From an uncultured Verrucomicrobiota bacterium (GTDB taxonomy: Bacteria; Verrucomicrobiota; Verrucomicrobiia; Verrucomicrobiales; DEV007), in assembly GCA_902589825.1 (NCBI GenBank), contig CACIUL010000008.1, positions 1 to 64,000 of the forward strand: DNA of 64,000 nucleotides, written 5' to 3'. Below, one piece after another: positions 24,308 to 31,360 of this stretch; position 1 is the first letter of the stretch; each line of letters begins with the position of its first letter. The position numbers and the translations under genes are program-made. The notes under the pieces are model-generated. The model did not search any database, was not told where the DNA came from, and worked only from the letters and a program-made list of their open reading frames with translations.

Positions 24308-24335
24308 AAAAAAATGCGCACATCGAGGTGCGCAT
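24307..24335. promoter_or_regulatory. Hairpin between arsS and the sulfatase, covering the sulfatase start
   Basis: ATGCGCAC (24314-24321) pairs perfectly with GTGCGCAT (24328-24335) around a six-base loop. The GAGG ribosome-binding sequence (24325-24328) lies in the loop and at the stem edge. The first two bases of the likely start codon (ATG at 24334) are in the right arm. Eight A precede the left arm, so minus-strand RNA would end in a T run like a terminator, but no minus-strand gene needs one here. Confidence 0.5.
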
Positions 24336-25785
24336 GTATCCTGCCCCCATGAAATTCCTGAAACGCTTCCTGCTACCCCTTATCATCACAATCCCGCCGG
24401 TAATGGGGATCTCTGCCGGAAAAAACAACACGAATTTCCTGCTCATCACCGTTGATGACATGAGTTGTGATTCCACAGGAGTGTTCGGCTGCCCCCTGCC
24501 CGGCATCACACCCAACGTTGACCGGCTTGCCGCTGAGGGACTGCGCTTCGAGCATGGGCACGTGACGGTCGCCATCTGCCAACCCTGCAGAGCGGTATGG
24601 ATGACAGGCCGATATCCGCACAATTCCGGGGCACTTGGTTTTGACAGAATCAATCAGGGTGTTCCCACCCTCCCGGAAGCACTTCAGGCGGCCGGTTACC
24701 ATACCGGCCTCATGGCCAAGCATGGCCATGTCGTGCCTTCACGGGCAGCGGCATTCGACGAGATTGTCGCTGCAAAGGAACTGAAAAACGGACGTTCCCC
24801 GGAACTCTTTGGCAAGCGGGCCGCCAACTTTTTCGCGACGGCAAAGAAAGCCGGAAAGCCATTCTTCCTGATGGCCAACTCCCAGGATCCGCACCGGCCT
24901 TTTATCGGCAGCAAACAGGAGAATGCCGCCAAGAAACGCGACAAGAAAAACAAGAGCCACCAATACGGTGGCGGCTTTCCGGAGGCAAAGGTGGCCTTTG
25001 ACCCGGAAAAAATCCCCTTACCCGGCTTCCTGCCCGATTTACCCGACATCCGCAAGGAACTCAGTGAATACTTTACCTCGGTACAGCGGGCCGATGCCAT
25101 TACGGGCGCCGTGTTAAAGGCGCTGGATGATTCCGGAATGCGTGACAACACCCTTGTCATGTTTCTCTCTGACCACGGAATGCCCCTTCCCTACGCAAAG
25201 ACCAATTGCTGGCATCATAGTACACGCACACCCTGGATTGTACGCTGGCCAGGCAAAATCAAGGAAGGCAGCCACGACAAGGAGCACGTCATAGGAGGTG
25301 TCGACCTTGCACCAACTGTTCTTGATGCCCTTGGCTTGCCGCCCCTTGCGGGCGCAGACGGACGTTCATTCCTGCCGCTGCTGAAAGGTAATAAACAGGA
25401 CGGACGCGACATCGCTTTTGCCCATATCAATACCATCGCCAGCAAGCGAGCCTATACCATGCGTGCGGTCATCACGCGCGATTTCCGCTACATCTGGAAC
25501 GGTTGGCATGACGGTGAGACCAGCTTCCGCAATGAATCGCTCAGTGGCCTCACCTGGAAGGCAATGACAGGTGCCGCGAAAGCCAACACAGCAATTGCCG
25601 CCAGGGTTGAATTCTACTCCAAACGCGTTCCCGAAGAACTCTATCATACCACCAGGGATCCCGACGCCCTGAACAACCTGATCACCGATCCGTCACAAGA
25701 AAAACGCATTGCGGCCCTCAGGGAAAAACTGGGTGCCCACATGAAGAAATCCCGGGATCCACAACTGAAAAAATTCGCAAGGTAA
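24334..25785 (+). CDS. Secreted sulfatase with CQPCR active-site motif
   Basis: Type I sulfatase of about 483 residues. The signal peptide lies at residues about 6-28 (MKFLKRFLLPLIITIPPVMGISA). LLITVDDMSCDSTGVFG gives the metal Asp pair. The formylglycine signature is ICQPCRAVWMTGR with Cys82 as the likely modified residue; a second Cys (85) replaces the usual Ser, which the minimal C-x-P-x-R consensus tolerates. LSDHGMPLPYAKTNCWHHSTRTPWIVRWPG resembles sulfatases of the S1_8 type. GTG 24328 and ATG 24349 are alternative starts; ATG 24334 has GAGG five bases upstream. It is probably transcribed with arsS, whose stop is 26 bases away. Confidence 0.88.
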   Translation: MYPAPMKFLKRFLLPLIITIPPVMGISAGKNNTNFLLITVDDMSCDSTGVFGCPLPGITPNVDRLAAEGLRFEHGHVTVAICQPCRAVWMTGRYPHNSGALGFDRINQGVPTLPEALQAAGYHTGLMAKHGHVVPSRAAAFDEIVAAKELKNGRSPELFGKRAANFFATAKKAGKPFFLMANSQDPHRPFIGSKQENAAKKRDKKNKSHQYGGGFPEAKVAFDPEKIPLPGFLPDLPDIRKELSEYFTSVQRADAITGAVLKALDDSGMRDNTLVMFLSDHGMPLPYAKTNCWHHSTRTPWIVRWPGKIKEGSHDKEHVIGGVDLAPTVLDALGLPPLAGADGRSFLPLLKGNKQDGRDIAFAHINTIASKRAYTMRAVITRDFRYIWNGWHDGETSFRNESLSGLTWKAMTGAAKANTAIAARVEFYSKRVPEELYHTTRDPDALNNLITDPSQEKRIAALREKLGAHMKKSRDPQLKKFAR

Positions 25786-25883
25786 CACTCTGCATGGATT
25801 CATGCCATTCCTTATGGCCAAATCGCTGCCATGGTTATTTTTTCGCTTTTAAATATAATCATCCCGTGTTCAAAATTGTTCTC

Positions 25884-26429
25884 ATGAAGAATATACTGCT
25901 CTCCACTTTCACCATTCTCGCCACTGCCAATCTCACACTCGCCGACCACCACGGGGGGGAGTTCAGTGAGCCCACAATCGACCTCGGTTGCGTGGTCAGT
26001 AACATCGATGCCTCGGTCAAGTTCTACACCGAAGCAATCGGATTCAAGGTCGCCGGCGGCTTCAAGGTGCCCGCCGGATTTGCAAAAGATTCCGGACTTA
26101 CTGCCAGCAAGGAACTCGACATCAAGGTTCTCACCCTGGGAGGAGCAAGCGGCGAGGAAGCTACCAAACTTAAGCTCATGCAGGTGAAGGGGTCGGGAGG
26201 CAAGGCGGATCAGTCCCATATCGACAGCACGCTTGGCTTCAGTTATATCACCATCATGGTCAAGAGCACCGATGCCGCCCTTAAGCGCCTCAAGAAGGCG
26301 GGCGTTAAACCCATCGCCAAAGGGCCAGCCACCCTGCCCAAGAGCCTCAACCCGGCACTTGCACTGACTATTGTTCGCGATCCAGACGGCAATTTTGTCG
26401 AGCTTGTCGGGCCGAAGCCTACAAAGTAA
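25884..26429 (+). CDS. Secreted VOC (glyoxalase-like) superfamily protein
   Basis: About 181 residues. The signal peptide is MKNILLSTFTILATANLTLA. The mature part opens with IDLGCVVSNIDASVKFYTEAIGFKV, the first beta-alpha-beta-beta module of the vicinal oxygen chelate fold. The second half has FSYITIMVKSTDAALKRLKKAGV and ends LTIVRDPDGNFVELVGP, the usual DPDGN-x-x-E-L motif with a metal-ligand Glu. The reaction is unknown. The longer frame from 25794 would mask the signal peptide, so I chose the ATG at 25884. It follows the sulfatase by 98 bases. Confidence 0.82.
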   Translation: MKNILLSTFTILATANLTLADHHGGEFSEPTIDLGCVVSNIDASVKFYTEAIGFKVAGGFKVPAGFAKDSGLTASKELDIKVLTLGGASGEEATKLKLMQVKGSGGKADQSHIDSTLGFSYITIMVKSTDAALKRLKKAGVKPIAKGPATLPKSLNPALALTIVRDPDGNFVELVGPKPTK

Positions 26430-26504
26430 CTGCCTTGCAGTAGACGGTTGATGCTCTCCTCAATGGCGCCCTTCAGTCCGCCGTCTTGGGCTTATTGATT
26501 AGCG

Positions 26505-26725
26505 GCCTTGCTGCATGGCACGAATCGTGAAACGATGCGTACCATGCAGCTCCATATCTCTTCCATCGCTGCTGGCACTTGCTGTTAATGGAAGTCTGAG
26601 CGCCATTCCCTGAGAAAACGGCCAGCTCAATCATTAAACAATCAGGTGTCCGGGAAGGCTTTACAGTGCACGTCAGGAAAGGCAAACCAAGGCCTGCCCT
26701 TAGGATCAATGGCCCGCAGCTGTTT
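26505..26725 (+). pseudogene. Decayed copy of the 5' end of the giant PQQ/LamG gene
   Basis: This stretch aligns by eye with 27447-27665, which holds the start hairpin, signal peptide and first part of the methyltransferase-like domain of the gene beginning at 27476. Shared blocks include TGGCACGAATCGTGAAACGA, ACTTGCTGT, CCTGAGAAAAC, AACAATCAGG and AGGCTTT. Roughly three quarters of positions agree. The reading frame is lost: the equivalent start codon (ATG 26535) leads to a TAA after 17 codons, and indels follow. It fills most of the 349-base gap between the VOC and DUF1287 genes. I infer an ancestral tandem duplication with decay of one copy. Confidence 0.75.
26511..26549 (+). repeat. Hairpin, copy A (in the decayed fragment)
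   Basis: CTGCATGGCACG (26511-26522) pairs with CGTACCATGCAG (26538-26549) with one mismatch. An inner ATCG/CGAT stem closes a TGAAA loop. One outer pair is G-C here where copy B at 27452-27490 has T-A, a matched two-sided change. Confidence 0.7.
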
Positions 26726-26778
26726 AAATTCACCAGACAACCCTGAAACATCTCAACCTGTGTGAACGTATACAAAGT

Positions 26779-27363
26779 ATGGCTCTTTTACGTACACTCT
26801 GTATCATTTTCCTGCTAGCAGGGCACAGTCTGGCACAAGGAACCAAGAGCAAGCCACAAAGACTCGTTGATGCTACTCGTACCAAAATAGGTGTCACTCT
26901 TGTCTACGATCCCTCCTATCAGGCCATTAAATATCCCATGGGGGATGTTGCCCCGGATCGCGGTGTATGCTCTGACGTCGTGATCAGAGCCTTTCGCAAG
27001 GGACTCAGGATGGACTTGCAAGAGCTCGTGCACCTGGACATGCGGAACAACTTTTCCAAATATCCGGATAATTGGGGTCTGAAAAAAACCGATCGAAATA
27101 TCGACCACCGCAGGGTTGCAAACCTTCAAACCTATTTCACCCGCAAAGGGTGGAAAGTTCCTGTCACCAAAAACAAGGACGATTACCAGCCCGGAGATCT
27201 GGTCATCTGCAGGGTTGCGGGGCGCCTTCCACACATCATGATCGTCAGTGACAAGAAGTCGCCAAAAGGTGTTCCGCTTGTCATTCACAACATCGGCCGA
27301 GGCACTCGCGAGGAAGACACGCTGTTCACCTATCCCATCTACGGTCACTTCCGAATCAGGTAA
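26779..27363 (+). CDS. Secreted DUF1287 protein (NlpC/P60-like fold)
   Basis: Exported protein of 194 residues. The signal peptide is MALLRTLCIIFLLAGHSLA. The body matches DUF1287: YDPSYQAIKYPMGDVAPDRGVCSDVVIRAFRK contains the likely catalytic Cys after DRG, LVHLDMRNNF follows, and DYQPGDLVICRVAGRLPHIMIVSD supplies the His typical of NlpC/P60-type cysteine amidases. A role in cell-wall or peptide amide cleavage is an inference from the fold. It sits between the decayed gene fragment and the intact giant gene. Confidence 0.88.
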   Translation: MALLRTLCIIFLLAGHSLAQGTKSKPQRLVDATRTKIGVTLVYDPSYQAIKYPMGDVAPDRGVCSDVVIRAFRKGLRMDLQELVHLDMRNNFSKYPDNWGLKKTDRNIDHRRVANLQTYFTRKGWKVPVTKNKDDYQPGDLVICRVAGRLPHIMIVSDKKSPKGVPLVIHNIGRGTREEDTLFTYPIYGHFRIR

Positions 27364-27451
27364 ACAAGCCTGGGAGCACCTTCATCCCCCGCATTAACCG
27401 CCCAATCGCCTGTTAATGCCGCCTAGTTGTCTATTTCTGCAGTCAACCTTG

Positions 27452-27490
27452 CTTCATGGCACGAATCGTGAAACGATGCGTGCCATGAAG
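27452..27490 (+). promoter_or_regulatory. Hairpin over the start codon of the PQQ/LamG gene, copy B
   Basis: CTTCATGGCACG (27452-27463) is a perfect 12-base inverted match to CGTGCCATGAAG (27479-27490). After one A/G mismatch an inner ATCG/CGAT stem closes a TGAAA loop. Both candidate start codons (ATG 27476 and ATG 27485) fall inside the right half. No Shine-Dalgarno sequence is visible. In RNA this would bury the start site, which suggests translational control or an RNA-level signal. Confidence 0.65.
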
Positions 27491-30400
27491 CCCTATATCC
27501 TTTTCCCGGCGCTGCTCACACTTGCTGTAAGTGGAATCCTGACAGCAAGCCCTGAGAAAACAGCAAGCGCCATCATTGAACAATCAGGGGTCCGGGGAGG
27601 CTTTGTAGTACACCTCGGGTGCGGGGAAGGCAAACTAACGGCTGCCCTGAAGATCAATGACAGCTATCAAGTCCATGGCATTGACCGGAATCGCGAAAGG
27701 GTAAATTCAGCTCGCGGGCATATTGATGCTCTGGGCATCTACGGCAGTGTTTCAGCCGATTACTTACATGGCCAGTCACTCCCTTACTCCGATAACATGG
27801 TCAACCTGCTTGTCTGTGAGGACCCCGAGGCGCTGGCCATAAGCACCGGCGAAATTCAAAGGGTATTGGTTCCCAATGGAATCGCCTTAATCAAGGAAGG
27901 CAACGGGTGGAAAAAGACCCAGAAGCCGCGCCCGGGCAATATCGACGAATGGACACACTTCCTGCACAGTGCCACCGGCAATGCAGTGGCTAAGGATGAT
28001 GTTGTCGGTCCACCCAGGCACCTGCAATGGATCGGCAACCCTCGCTGGTCCCGACACCATGACCGGATGGCCAGCACCAGCGCCATGGTCTCGGCCAGCG
28101 GCCGCCTTTTCTACATCATGGACGAGGGTTCCCGCATATCAATCCAGCTGCCTGCCAAGTGGCGGTTGATCGCACGTGATGCATTCAATGGCACCGTGCT
28201 CTGGAAACGGAACATCAGGGACTGGCAGAGCCATCTATGGCCATTGAAAAGCGGGCCGACAAACCTCGCTAGGCGCCTGGTAGCAGAAGGTGACAGGGTC
28301 TATGTCACACTGGGATTCAATGCCCCGACAGCAGTCCTTGATGCTGCAACCGGCAAAACCTTAAAGACATTTGCGGACAGTGAAGGAACCGAGGAAATCA
28401 TCCAAACCGGTGGAGTTGTTTACCTTCTGGTCAACAAGGGCGAGATGGAAACCGCGCGGTTTGCTCCAAAACTCAATGTCGGAGACCAGGCCCGGGTCGA
28501 CAAGGAGTTCCACTGGAATAAACAGCCACGCAAGATAATGGCCTTCGACGCCAAGACCGGCGAACGGCTTTGGCAGCGGGAAACCAAAGTTGCCCCACTT
28601 ACCCTCTCGGGTGATGAGCGCAGTATCTATTTTTTTGACGGCGAGAAAGTTGTCAGCCTTGGCCAGACCAGCGGCAATGTTCTTTGGGAATCCAAGCCTC
28701 TGGGCATGAAATCATATGTTGCCCAGAACTTCGGGCCCAAACTTGTCGCCTACGGCGAGGTAGTCATGTTTGCAGGTGGTGACCGTCTGGTAAGTGCACT
28801 GGACAGGAATACCGGCAGGGAAATCTGGTCAGAAGCACATGCCAGGGGTGGTTACAAGTCTCCTGAGGATCTGCTTGTCTCCGGTGGCCTGCTGTGGTCG
28901 GCACCTACCACAAGCGGCAGGGATTCCGGGGTCTTCACGGGACGCGACCCGCTTACCGGAGAGGTTAAAAACCAGTTTGCCCCGGAGGTCGACACCTATT
29001 GGTTTCATCACCGCTGCTATATAGCCAAGGCAACCGAAAAGTATATCCTGCCCTCGCGAACCGGCATTGAGTTTGTAAACCCGAAGGAAAAAAACTGGGA
29101 AATCCACCATTGGGTGCGTGGCGGATGCCTGTATGGCAGCATGCCTTGTAACGGGTTGCTCTACTCACCACCCCACAATTGTGCATGCTACCCGGAAGCC
29201 AAGCTATATGGCCTGAATGCACTGGCTCCCGCTTCTCAAGCCCGGAACCTGCCGGCAGTCATTTCGCCCGCAGGGCGACTGGAAAAAGGTCCGGCTTACA
29301 ATGATACAATCCGGGGCGGTGAAACCGCAGGAGACTGGCCAACCTACCGCGCCAACAATGCCCGAAGCGGCAGGAGCAAAGCCGTCCTTTCAACGAACAT
29401 CAAGCCTTCCTGGAAGAGTAAACTCGGTGGCCGCCTCAGTGCCCTGAGCATTGCGGCAGGCCGGGTTTTTGTTGCCCGGGTTGATGCCCACACCCTGCAC
29501 GCCCTTGACCAGAAAAGCGGCCACCCGCTGTGGCAATACACTGCGGGTGGACGAATCGATTCACCGCCTACCATTGCCGAAGGACGTGCCATCTTCGGTT
29601 CCGCTGACGGCTGGGTCTATTGCCTGAGGGCAAATGACGGAAAACTGGTCTGGCGTTTCCGGGCAGCACCCCGCGACAGGCGCTTAATGGCAATGGAACA
29701 ACTCGAGTCCGTATGGCCGGTTCATGGCACCATACTTGTTGAGGAAAATATTGCGTATTTTGTCGCCGGACGTTCCTACTTCCTTGATGGGGGGCTGCGC
29801 TTCTTCAAGGTAGACATCAGGTCAGGAAAAAAACTTGCCGAGGTCGTGCTCAATGACCGCAACCCGGAAACCGGAAAGAACCTGCAGGACCAGCTTCAAA
29901 CCCTGCAAATGCCGGTAGGCCTTCCTGATATCCTCTCGGTCAAGGATGATCATATTTACATGCGCTCACAGCAGTTTGACCGCAACGGGAAGAGAATGTT
30001 CCTTGGTCCTCACTCAGGGGATGCGGCAAGGCAGGGATCCGTGCAAGGTGGTGCTGAAGCGCACCTTTTCTCGCCAACCGGTTTCCTGGACGGCTCGTGG
30101 TTCCACCGCAGCTATTGGGTCTACGGGCGCAGTTTTGCTGGCGGACACAATGGTTACCACCAGGCAGGAAAATTTGCACCTTCCGGGAGAATTCTCGTCT
30201 TTGATGAGGACAACGTCTTCGGGTTCGGGCGCAAGCCAGAATATTACCGTTGGACAACCACCCTGGAACACCAGCTTTTCAGTGCGCCTAAGAAAGCACC
30301 TCCGATTCCGAAAATACCAGCAAAACGCGGAATCGGCACCACTGCAATCGATTATGCAATTACCCCGAGCCTGAACCCGACTCAGAGCGCCCTGAGCATT

Positions 30401-31360
30401 CAGGCCTGGATCAATCCGAACAAGCCGACTGGGGTCGTCGTGGCACACGGCGGGCCCCAGAACGGATACGCAATCTACTTGAACAAGGGAAAACTGCACT
30501 TTGCCGTGCGGGCCAATAATGAGCTCACACAGGCGGTCTCCCCAATGCGAACACCTCCCAAAAAGTGGTCACATGTCGCCGGTGTCCTGGGCAAACAAGG
30601 TGAGATGCGCCTTTACCTCAATGGGGAACAGGTCGCTAAAGCAACCTCAAACTCCCTGATTACCGCCAACCCCATACAGGGACTCCAGATTGGTGCGGAC
30701 GCAATTAGCGCGGTTGCCGAGTATACCGCCCCCTTAGGCTTTGCCGGTTCTATCGATGAGGTGCGTATCTTCCACCGGGCACTTGCCGCTGAAGAAATCA
30801 AAAGCCATGCAGCCAACCCCGGGGGAGTGCCTGAGGACCGGAGCGGAATCGTTCTGGACTGCTCCTTTGACCGGGGACACGGACGTGACTTTTCAGGTCA
30901 AAACAACCATGGCAAGGTCGAGGGCGCGCAGCCTGCCAAGGGCAAGGCTGGCAACGCGATGCGCTTTACCGGCAAACCCGCCAAGAGCAAGGGCATAGGC
31001 GGGTATCACGTGGTTCATAAATGGACAAAACAAACACCGCTCTTCGTGCGTTCCATGCTGCTTAGTGGCGATTCCCTGTTCATCGCCGGTCCCCCCGATA
31101 TCATGGATGAGGAGGAAACCTTCAAGCGGTTAACGGAACGGGACCCCGAGGTACACAAGTTACTCGCCTCACAGGATGCGGCCCTTGAAGGGAAACAGGG
31201 CGGTATCCTCCGGGTGGTGAACAAGCATGACGGGGCCCAGTTGGCTGAATACAAGATCGGTGCCCTGCCTGTCTGGGACAGCCTTGCGGCAAGCGCAAAC
31301 CGCCTCTACTGGACCACTGAAACCGGAGAAGTCGTCAGCTACACGGCATCCAGCCAGTGA
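27476..31360 (+). CDS. Giant secreted protein: methyltransferase-like, PQQ beta-propeller, LamG
   Basis: Protein of about 1294 residues. The signal peptide is MKPYILFPALLTLAVSGILTAS. Residues about 40-138 resemble a class I methyltransferase (FVVHLGCGEGKLTAAL, VHGIDRNRERV, SLPYSDNMVNLLVC). PQQ-like propeller repeats follow from about 180 to 905 (DAFNGTVLWKRNI, DAKTGERLWQRE, LDRNTGREIWSE, DQKSGHPLWQY), with a second block opening GDWPTYRANNARSGRS near 619. A LamG/concanavalin-like domain spans about 958-1115 (ALSIQAWINPNK, LYLNGEQVAKA, SIDEVRIFHRAL). It probably works on the cell surface or in the periplasm; catalytic activity is unproven. ATG 27485 is an alternative start; both lie in a hairpin. 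A decayed copy of its 5' end lies about 940 bases upstream. Confidence 0.85.
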   Translation: MRAMKPYILFPALLTLAVSGILTASPEKTASAIIEQSGVRGGFVVHLGCGEGKLTAALKINDSYQVHGIDRNRERVNSARGHIDALGIYGSVSADYLHGQSLPYSDNMVNLLVCEDPEALAISTGEIQRVLVPNGIALIKEGNGWKKTQKPRPGNIDEWTHFLHSATGNAVAKDDVVGPPRHLQWIGNPRWSRHHDRMASTSAMVSASGRLFYIMDEGSRISIQLPAKWRLIARDAFNGTVLWKRNIRDWQSHLWPLKSGPTNLARRLVAEGDRVYVTLGFNAPTAVLDAATGKTLKTFADSEGTEEIIQTGGVVYLLVNKGEMETARFAPKLNVGDQARVDKEFHWNKQPRKIMAFDAKTGERLWQRETKVAPLTLSGDERSIYFFDGEKVVSLGQTSGNVLWESKPLGMKSYVAQNFGPKLVAYGEVVMFAGGDRLVSALDRNTGREIWSEAHARGGYKSPEDLLVSGGLLWSAPTTSGRDSGVFTGRDPLTGEVKNQFAPEVDTYWFHHRCYIAKATEKYILPSRTGIEFVNPKEKNWEIHHWVRGGCLYGSMPCNGLLYSPPHNCACYPEAKLYGLNALAPASQARNLPAVISPAGRLEKGPAYNDTIRGGETAGDWPTYRANNARSGRSKAVLSTNIKPSWKSKLGGRLSALSIAAGRVFVARVDAHTLHALDQKSGHPLWQYTAGGRIDSPPTIAEGRAIFGSADGWVYCLRANDGKLVWRFRAAPRDRRLMAMEQLESVWPVHGTILVEENIAYFVAGRSYFLDGGLRFFKVDIRSGKKLAEVVLNDRNPETGKNLQDQLQTLQMPVGLPDILSVKDDHIYMRSQQFDRNGKRMFLGPHSGDAARQGSVQGGAEAHLFSPTGFLDGSWFHRSYWVYGRSFAGGHNGYHQAGKFAPSGRILVFDEDNVFGFGRKPEYYRWTTTLEHQLFSAPKKAPPIPKIPAKRGIGTTAIDYAITPSLNPTQSALSIQAWINPNKPTGVVVAHGGPQNGYAIYLNKGKLHFAVRANNELTQAVSPMRTPPKKWSHVAGVLGKQGEMRLYLNGEQVAKATSNSLITANPIQGLQIGADAISAVAEYTAPLGFAGSIDEVRIFHRALAAEEIKSHAANPGGVPEDRSGIVLDCSFDRGHGRDFSGQNNHGKVEGAQPAKGKAGNAMRFTGKPAKSKGIGGYHVVHKWTKQTPLFVRSMLLSGDSLFIAGPPDIMDEEETFKRLTERDPEVHKLLASQDAALEGKQGGILRVVNKHDGAQLAEYKIGALPVWDSLAASANRLYWTTETGEVVSYTASSQ

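Follow-up and report, generated by a model that had tools for sequence, protein, structure and literature searches.

A hairpin over the start codon of a large secreted PQQ/LamG gene as a possible translational control element in one genus of Verrucomicrobiota

What does a very stable hairpin do on the start codon of a large secreted protein? The gene in question, at 27485–31360 on the forward strand, encodes 1291 residues with methyltransferase-like, PQQ/BamB-type β-propeller and LamG-like (Laminin_G_3) domains, and is referred to here as the PQQ gene. It lies in the window, a 64,000-nucleotide stretch of DNA from an uncultured Verrucomicrobiota bacterium (contig CACIUL010000008.1). The hairpin (27451–27491, forward strand) has arms at 27451–27469 and 27473–27491 with 18 of 19 positions paired, and reads GCTTCATGGCACG-A-ATCGT-GAA-ACGAT-G-CGTGCCATGAAGC. 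It thus consists of 13 outer pairs, one A·G mismatch, 5 inner pairs and a 3-base GAA loop. An earlier note on this DNA had described a perfect 12-base stem with an inner stem and a TGAAA loop, covering both candidate start codons. The stem is slightly larger than that, the TGAAA loop corresponds to the GAA loop plus its closing T-A pair, and its 3′ half does contain both in-frame ATGs. The first (27476–27478) is on the loop-proximal side of the 3′ arm. The second (27485–27487, ATGAAG), within the same arm, is the likely start codon, since a signal peptide (MKPYILFPALLTLAVSG...) follows it.

As RNA, the hairpin folds at −28.5 kcal/mol (z −8.3), and none of 200 dinucleotide shuffles gave an equally good fold. 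It is the second strongest near-perfect hairpin in the 864 kb of genome surveyed (the window and sampled stretches totalling 800 kb), the single stronger one having a different sequence. A chance origin is ruled out. The start region of the PQQ gene (−35 to +20) folds at −29.3 kcal/mol, compared to −15.2 kcal/mol for the next strongest among 34 other start positions in the window (one of them not at a start codon). A genome-wide class of start-codon hairpins was considered and rejected, as the survey gave one other strong near-start palindrome, of unrelated sequence and unconserved.

The 33-base core of the hairpin was searched in 96 genomes of the order, with up to three mismatches allowed. 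Matches were found twice in this genome and once in each of two congeners, Verrucomicrobiales MAG PW8 (G001, L044) and Verrucomicrobiaceae MAG Ust_9 (G002, L043), which carry PQQ orthologues of 84–87% identity. All of them sit at the start of this PQQ gene, the two in this genome both at PQQ 5′ ends. The core is absent from a third congener (G003), where the PQQ gene is a 3′ remnant only. Homologues of the gene in other genera reach identities of up to 59%, and neither a similar sequence nor a comparable start structure was found at them. The hairpin is kept in the two congeners and in a remnant described below, and other genera are without it. The earlier suggestion that it might be part of a repeated DNA element does not hold: the 96-genome search points to a gene-linked rather than a genome-wide sequence, with none of the many unrelated copies of a generic repeat. 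A REP-like dispersed repeat is ruled out by the two copies in this genome, both at PQQ 5′ ends, and a phage or plasmid element by viral contigs and plasmids that lack the hairpin pattern. The window also has no Rfam match at the gathering score (riboswitch, thermometer and leader families). By these searches, the hairpin is specific to one gene and one genus and is not a generic repeat.

The second hairpin in this genome (26510–26550; 17 of 19 positions paired, −24.0 kcal/mol) belongs to a 5′ remnant of a second PQQ gene (26506–26711), frameshifted and comprising its first ∼55 codons. At 26711/26712, a junction known from the assembled genome, the remnant meets a second, relative-like copy of a sulfatase 3′ tail (26712–26740). 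The sulfatase gene itself (24328–25785) is the left neighbour common to all four congeners. G001 and G002 are arranged as sulfatase, DUF1287, hairpin and PQQ, and G003 as sulfatase, VOC, PQQ 3′ remnant and next gene, the PQQ gene having decayed to a 3′ remnant on contig C521 (L087:1192–1484). The window holds the two orders one after the other, with all these features on the forward strand: sulfatase, VOC, hairpin, PQQ 5′ remnant, sulfatase tail, DUF1287, hairpin and PQQ. The Glyoxalase/VOC gene (25794–26429) lies 5′ of the remnant and has the same place in G003, and the DUF1287 gene (26779–27363) is directly 5′ of the hairpin, 122 bases ahead of the PQQ start. Relative to G001 and G002, the stretch 25790–26740, with VOC, the PQQ 5′ remnant and the second sulfatase tail, is inserted between the sulfatase and DUF1287. 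Since both orders stand in series, the remnant would most simply derive from the PQQ gene at a locus of the VOC type, with a segment of the DUF1287 type joined to it. It is closest to the window's own PQQ gene (77%, compared to 56–57% for G001 and G002). Thus, what the earlier note called a decayed copy is indeed a second copy of the hairpin, but it is better described as a PQQ remnant of a different gene order than as a simple local duplicate.

Homology between the two copies starts 4 bases ahead of the hairpin, and the DNA 5′ of the remnant has no homology above shuffles to the functional spacer. As the upstream contexts are unrelated, the VOC-PQQ and DUF1287-PQQ arrangements have nothing in common upstream of the gene except CCTTGC plus the hairpin. 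We also observed that in the DUF1287 gene (26740–27363) 8–17% of four-fold sites differ among the window, G001 and G002, compared to 30–59% in the neighbouring genes compared; its homologues outside the genus are ordinary, with at most 65% identity. This similarity may reflect either a recent spread between species or an unusual constraint.

Conservation was assessed in an alignment of the functional copy, the 26510 remnant, G001 and G002. The block 27447–27489, which is CCTTGC and the hairpin up to the start codon, has 5 variable columns out of 43, compared to 87 out of 163 in 27490–27660 (Fisher p = 6e-7; four sequences). At the three intact loci, identities within the hairpin (27452–27489) are 97%, 97% and 95%, compared to 84%, 83% and 80% in the preceding spacer. 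Given the low column variation relative to the downstream region, the hairpin sequence is likely under constraint, and this is the best-supported statement that can be made about it.

Whether the pairing itself is selected is a separate matter. In the remnant copy, the fourth pair has changed from T-A to G-C and the tenth from C-G to C-A, as the earlier note described. Its reading of the double change as selection on pairing is unsupported, since this is the one compensated pair over the four sequences and 108 of 500 shuffles did as well as the observed count, in a comparison of four sequences only. The C12-G30 pair has one wobble and one broken state, C10-G32 one broken state, and the outermost pairs in G001 and G002 are lost or reduced to G-U. 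Covariation over the four sequences is not significant, and homologues outside the genus have no matching hairpin. With three random substitutions in the hairpin, a Watson-Crick pair is compensated in 2.2% of cases, a figure that does not yet allow for the unchanged lineages. Compensated pairs are also documented to arise in one step when the template is switched between arms (PMC8794818), and one such event could explain the double change. A stable fold is found in all four sequences (−17.7 to −28.5 kcal/mol, z −5.4 to −8.3), that of G001 reaching only −17.7 kcal/mol, and both G001 and the remnant have lost pairs through changes in the core. Pairing-specific selection is thus, at the level of these alignments, neither demonstrated nor excluded. 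The case shows clearly how a comparison of two copies with a lone “compensatory” pair can be misleading, as the sequence conservation is real and the covariation is not significant.

The hairpin is probably a local, regulatory element of the PQQ gene. We tentatively favour, among the explanations considered, a cis-acting control element, specific to the genus and fused with the secreted PQQ/LamG gene at its start, which would occlude the start codon on read-through mRNA. Transcription would arrive from upstream, as read-through from DUF1287 or, formerly, from VOC. The read-through mRNA would fold into the hairpin, leaving the start codon hidden and translation very low, and translation would occur only if the hairpin were opened, or from a transcript with its 5′ end within the hairpin and hence no 5′ arm. 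Judging from the known effects of structure in start regions, a stem this strong on a start codon would be expected to prevent initiation on every mRNA with both arms. The stable stem that covers the start codon is what a start-codon- or RBS-occluding hairpin calls for. We counted in favour of occlusion the outlying fold of the start region, the strong folds of all four sequences, the low number of variable columns together with the presence of the hairpin at this gene only, the stretch that the two gene orders have in common upstream, and the precedent of the sigG leader described below. Against it we counted the non-significant covariation with the pair-breaking core changes in G001 and the remnant, the same gene without a hairpin in other genera, and a stem of −28 kcal/mol, which exceeds the usual strength for a tunable switch.

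The palindrome could instead act as DNA, as a nested site for a putative dimeric regulator, possibly overlapping a promoter, with its sequence rather than its pairing under selection. We consider this somewhat unlikely. The outer (CATGGCACG/CGTGCCATG) and inner (ATCGT/ACGAT) half-site pairs are both symmetric, the sequence is kept while pair-breaking mutations are tolerated, and the conserved block is the sole upstream sequence common to the two gene orders. However, the four genomes of the genus contain the inner palindrome at no other place and the outer one at a single unrelated sequence in G002, so that any regulator would serve one site, and a scan of the neighbouring genes gave no regulator. 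An operator recognized by further genomic sites or a linked regulator is therefore not what we find, which leaves a single-target regulator compatible. A promoter scan at the hairpin locus gave nothing convincing and no promoter-like match at the site. A σ54-type promoter in the arm (TGGCACG) was rejected because the −12 GC is absent on both strands, as judged by eye.

A less likely explanation is a functionless palindrome that owes both its origin and its near-perfect state to template switching between its arms, with the double change made in a single event of this kind. Template switching is able to create and repair hairpins (PMC8794818), and the lack of significant covariation agrees with it. 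A 22-pair perfect palindrome elsewhere in this genome (G000 C35, L116:8419–8465), 13 bases 5′ of an ORF for a 741-residue secreted protein, is absent from the 56 relatives among the 57 genomes searched, consistent with such palindromes appearing and vanishing. However, this explanation does not account for the contrast in variable columns, which includes loop and mismatch positions and extends over four lineages.

It is improbable that the hairpin is an intercistronic stem that ends the message of the gene ahead of it, DUF1287 (or VOC), or protects the 3′ end of that message. It is very stable and lies 88 bases past the stop codon of the preceding gene in one context and 81 bases past it in the other, but it is located on the downstream start codon rather than near the upstream stop. 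An intrinsic terminator, with a GC-rich stem and a T run, was rejected: CCTATATCCT follows the stem, the T run is absent and the terminator scan did not report it. We consider it quite improbable that the palindrome is a 5′ module travelling with the PQQ gene, which would silence upstream read-through and mark the edge of a VOC/DUF1287 cassette exchange. Constraint on a coding sequence is very improbable. In this reading the block would be translated, either to extend the N terminus or as a 10-codon upstream ORF (MARIVKRCVP, 27456–27488, with an ATGA overlap with the PQQ start). The frame is open across the hairpin and the ORF is unbroken in the window and G001, but the core changes are non-synonymous in the PQQ frame, and the ORF is cut to two codons in G002 and has lost its stop codon in the 26510 remnant. 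A conserved upstream peptide is ruled out by the break in G002. There, a C to T change in the hairpin (L043:2041–2049) turns the upstream ORF into ATGGCATGA and creates a new in-frame ATG, with the ATGA overlap retained.

Start-codon occlusion, the reading that we favour, has relatives among known systems. A conserved hairpin in the B. subtilis sigG leader occludes the RBS and cuts translation up to 4-fold (PMC5942855). The likeness is that, in both, a conserved stem covers the place where ribosomes land on a single gene; the stem here differs in being on the AUG itself, longer and known from one genus. REP and other dispersed palindromic repeats are similarly palindromic, intergenic and about 40 bases long, whereas a genome carries the present hairpin once or twice, each time at the PQQ gene. 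The IS10/Tn10 transposase read-through mRNA is subject to fold-back inhibition, and the present hairpin, also an inverted repeat at a gene start, would likewise silence outside transcripts. In contrast to IS10/Tn10, neither a transposase nor element ends were found here, and the locus is not a mobile element.

Large secreted PQQ/LamG proteins are common in Verrucomicrobiota and Planctomycetota, and to our knowledge their regulation is unstudied. If the hairpin works, it would provide a simple and strong translational lock on one of these proteins.
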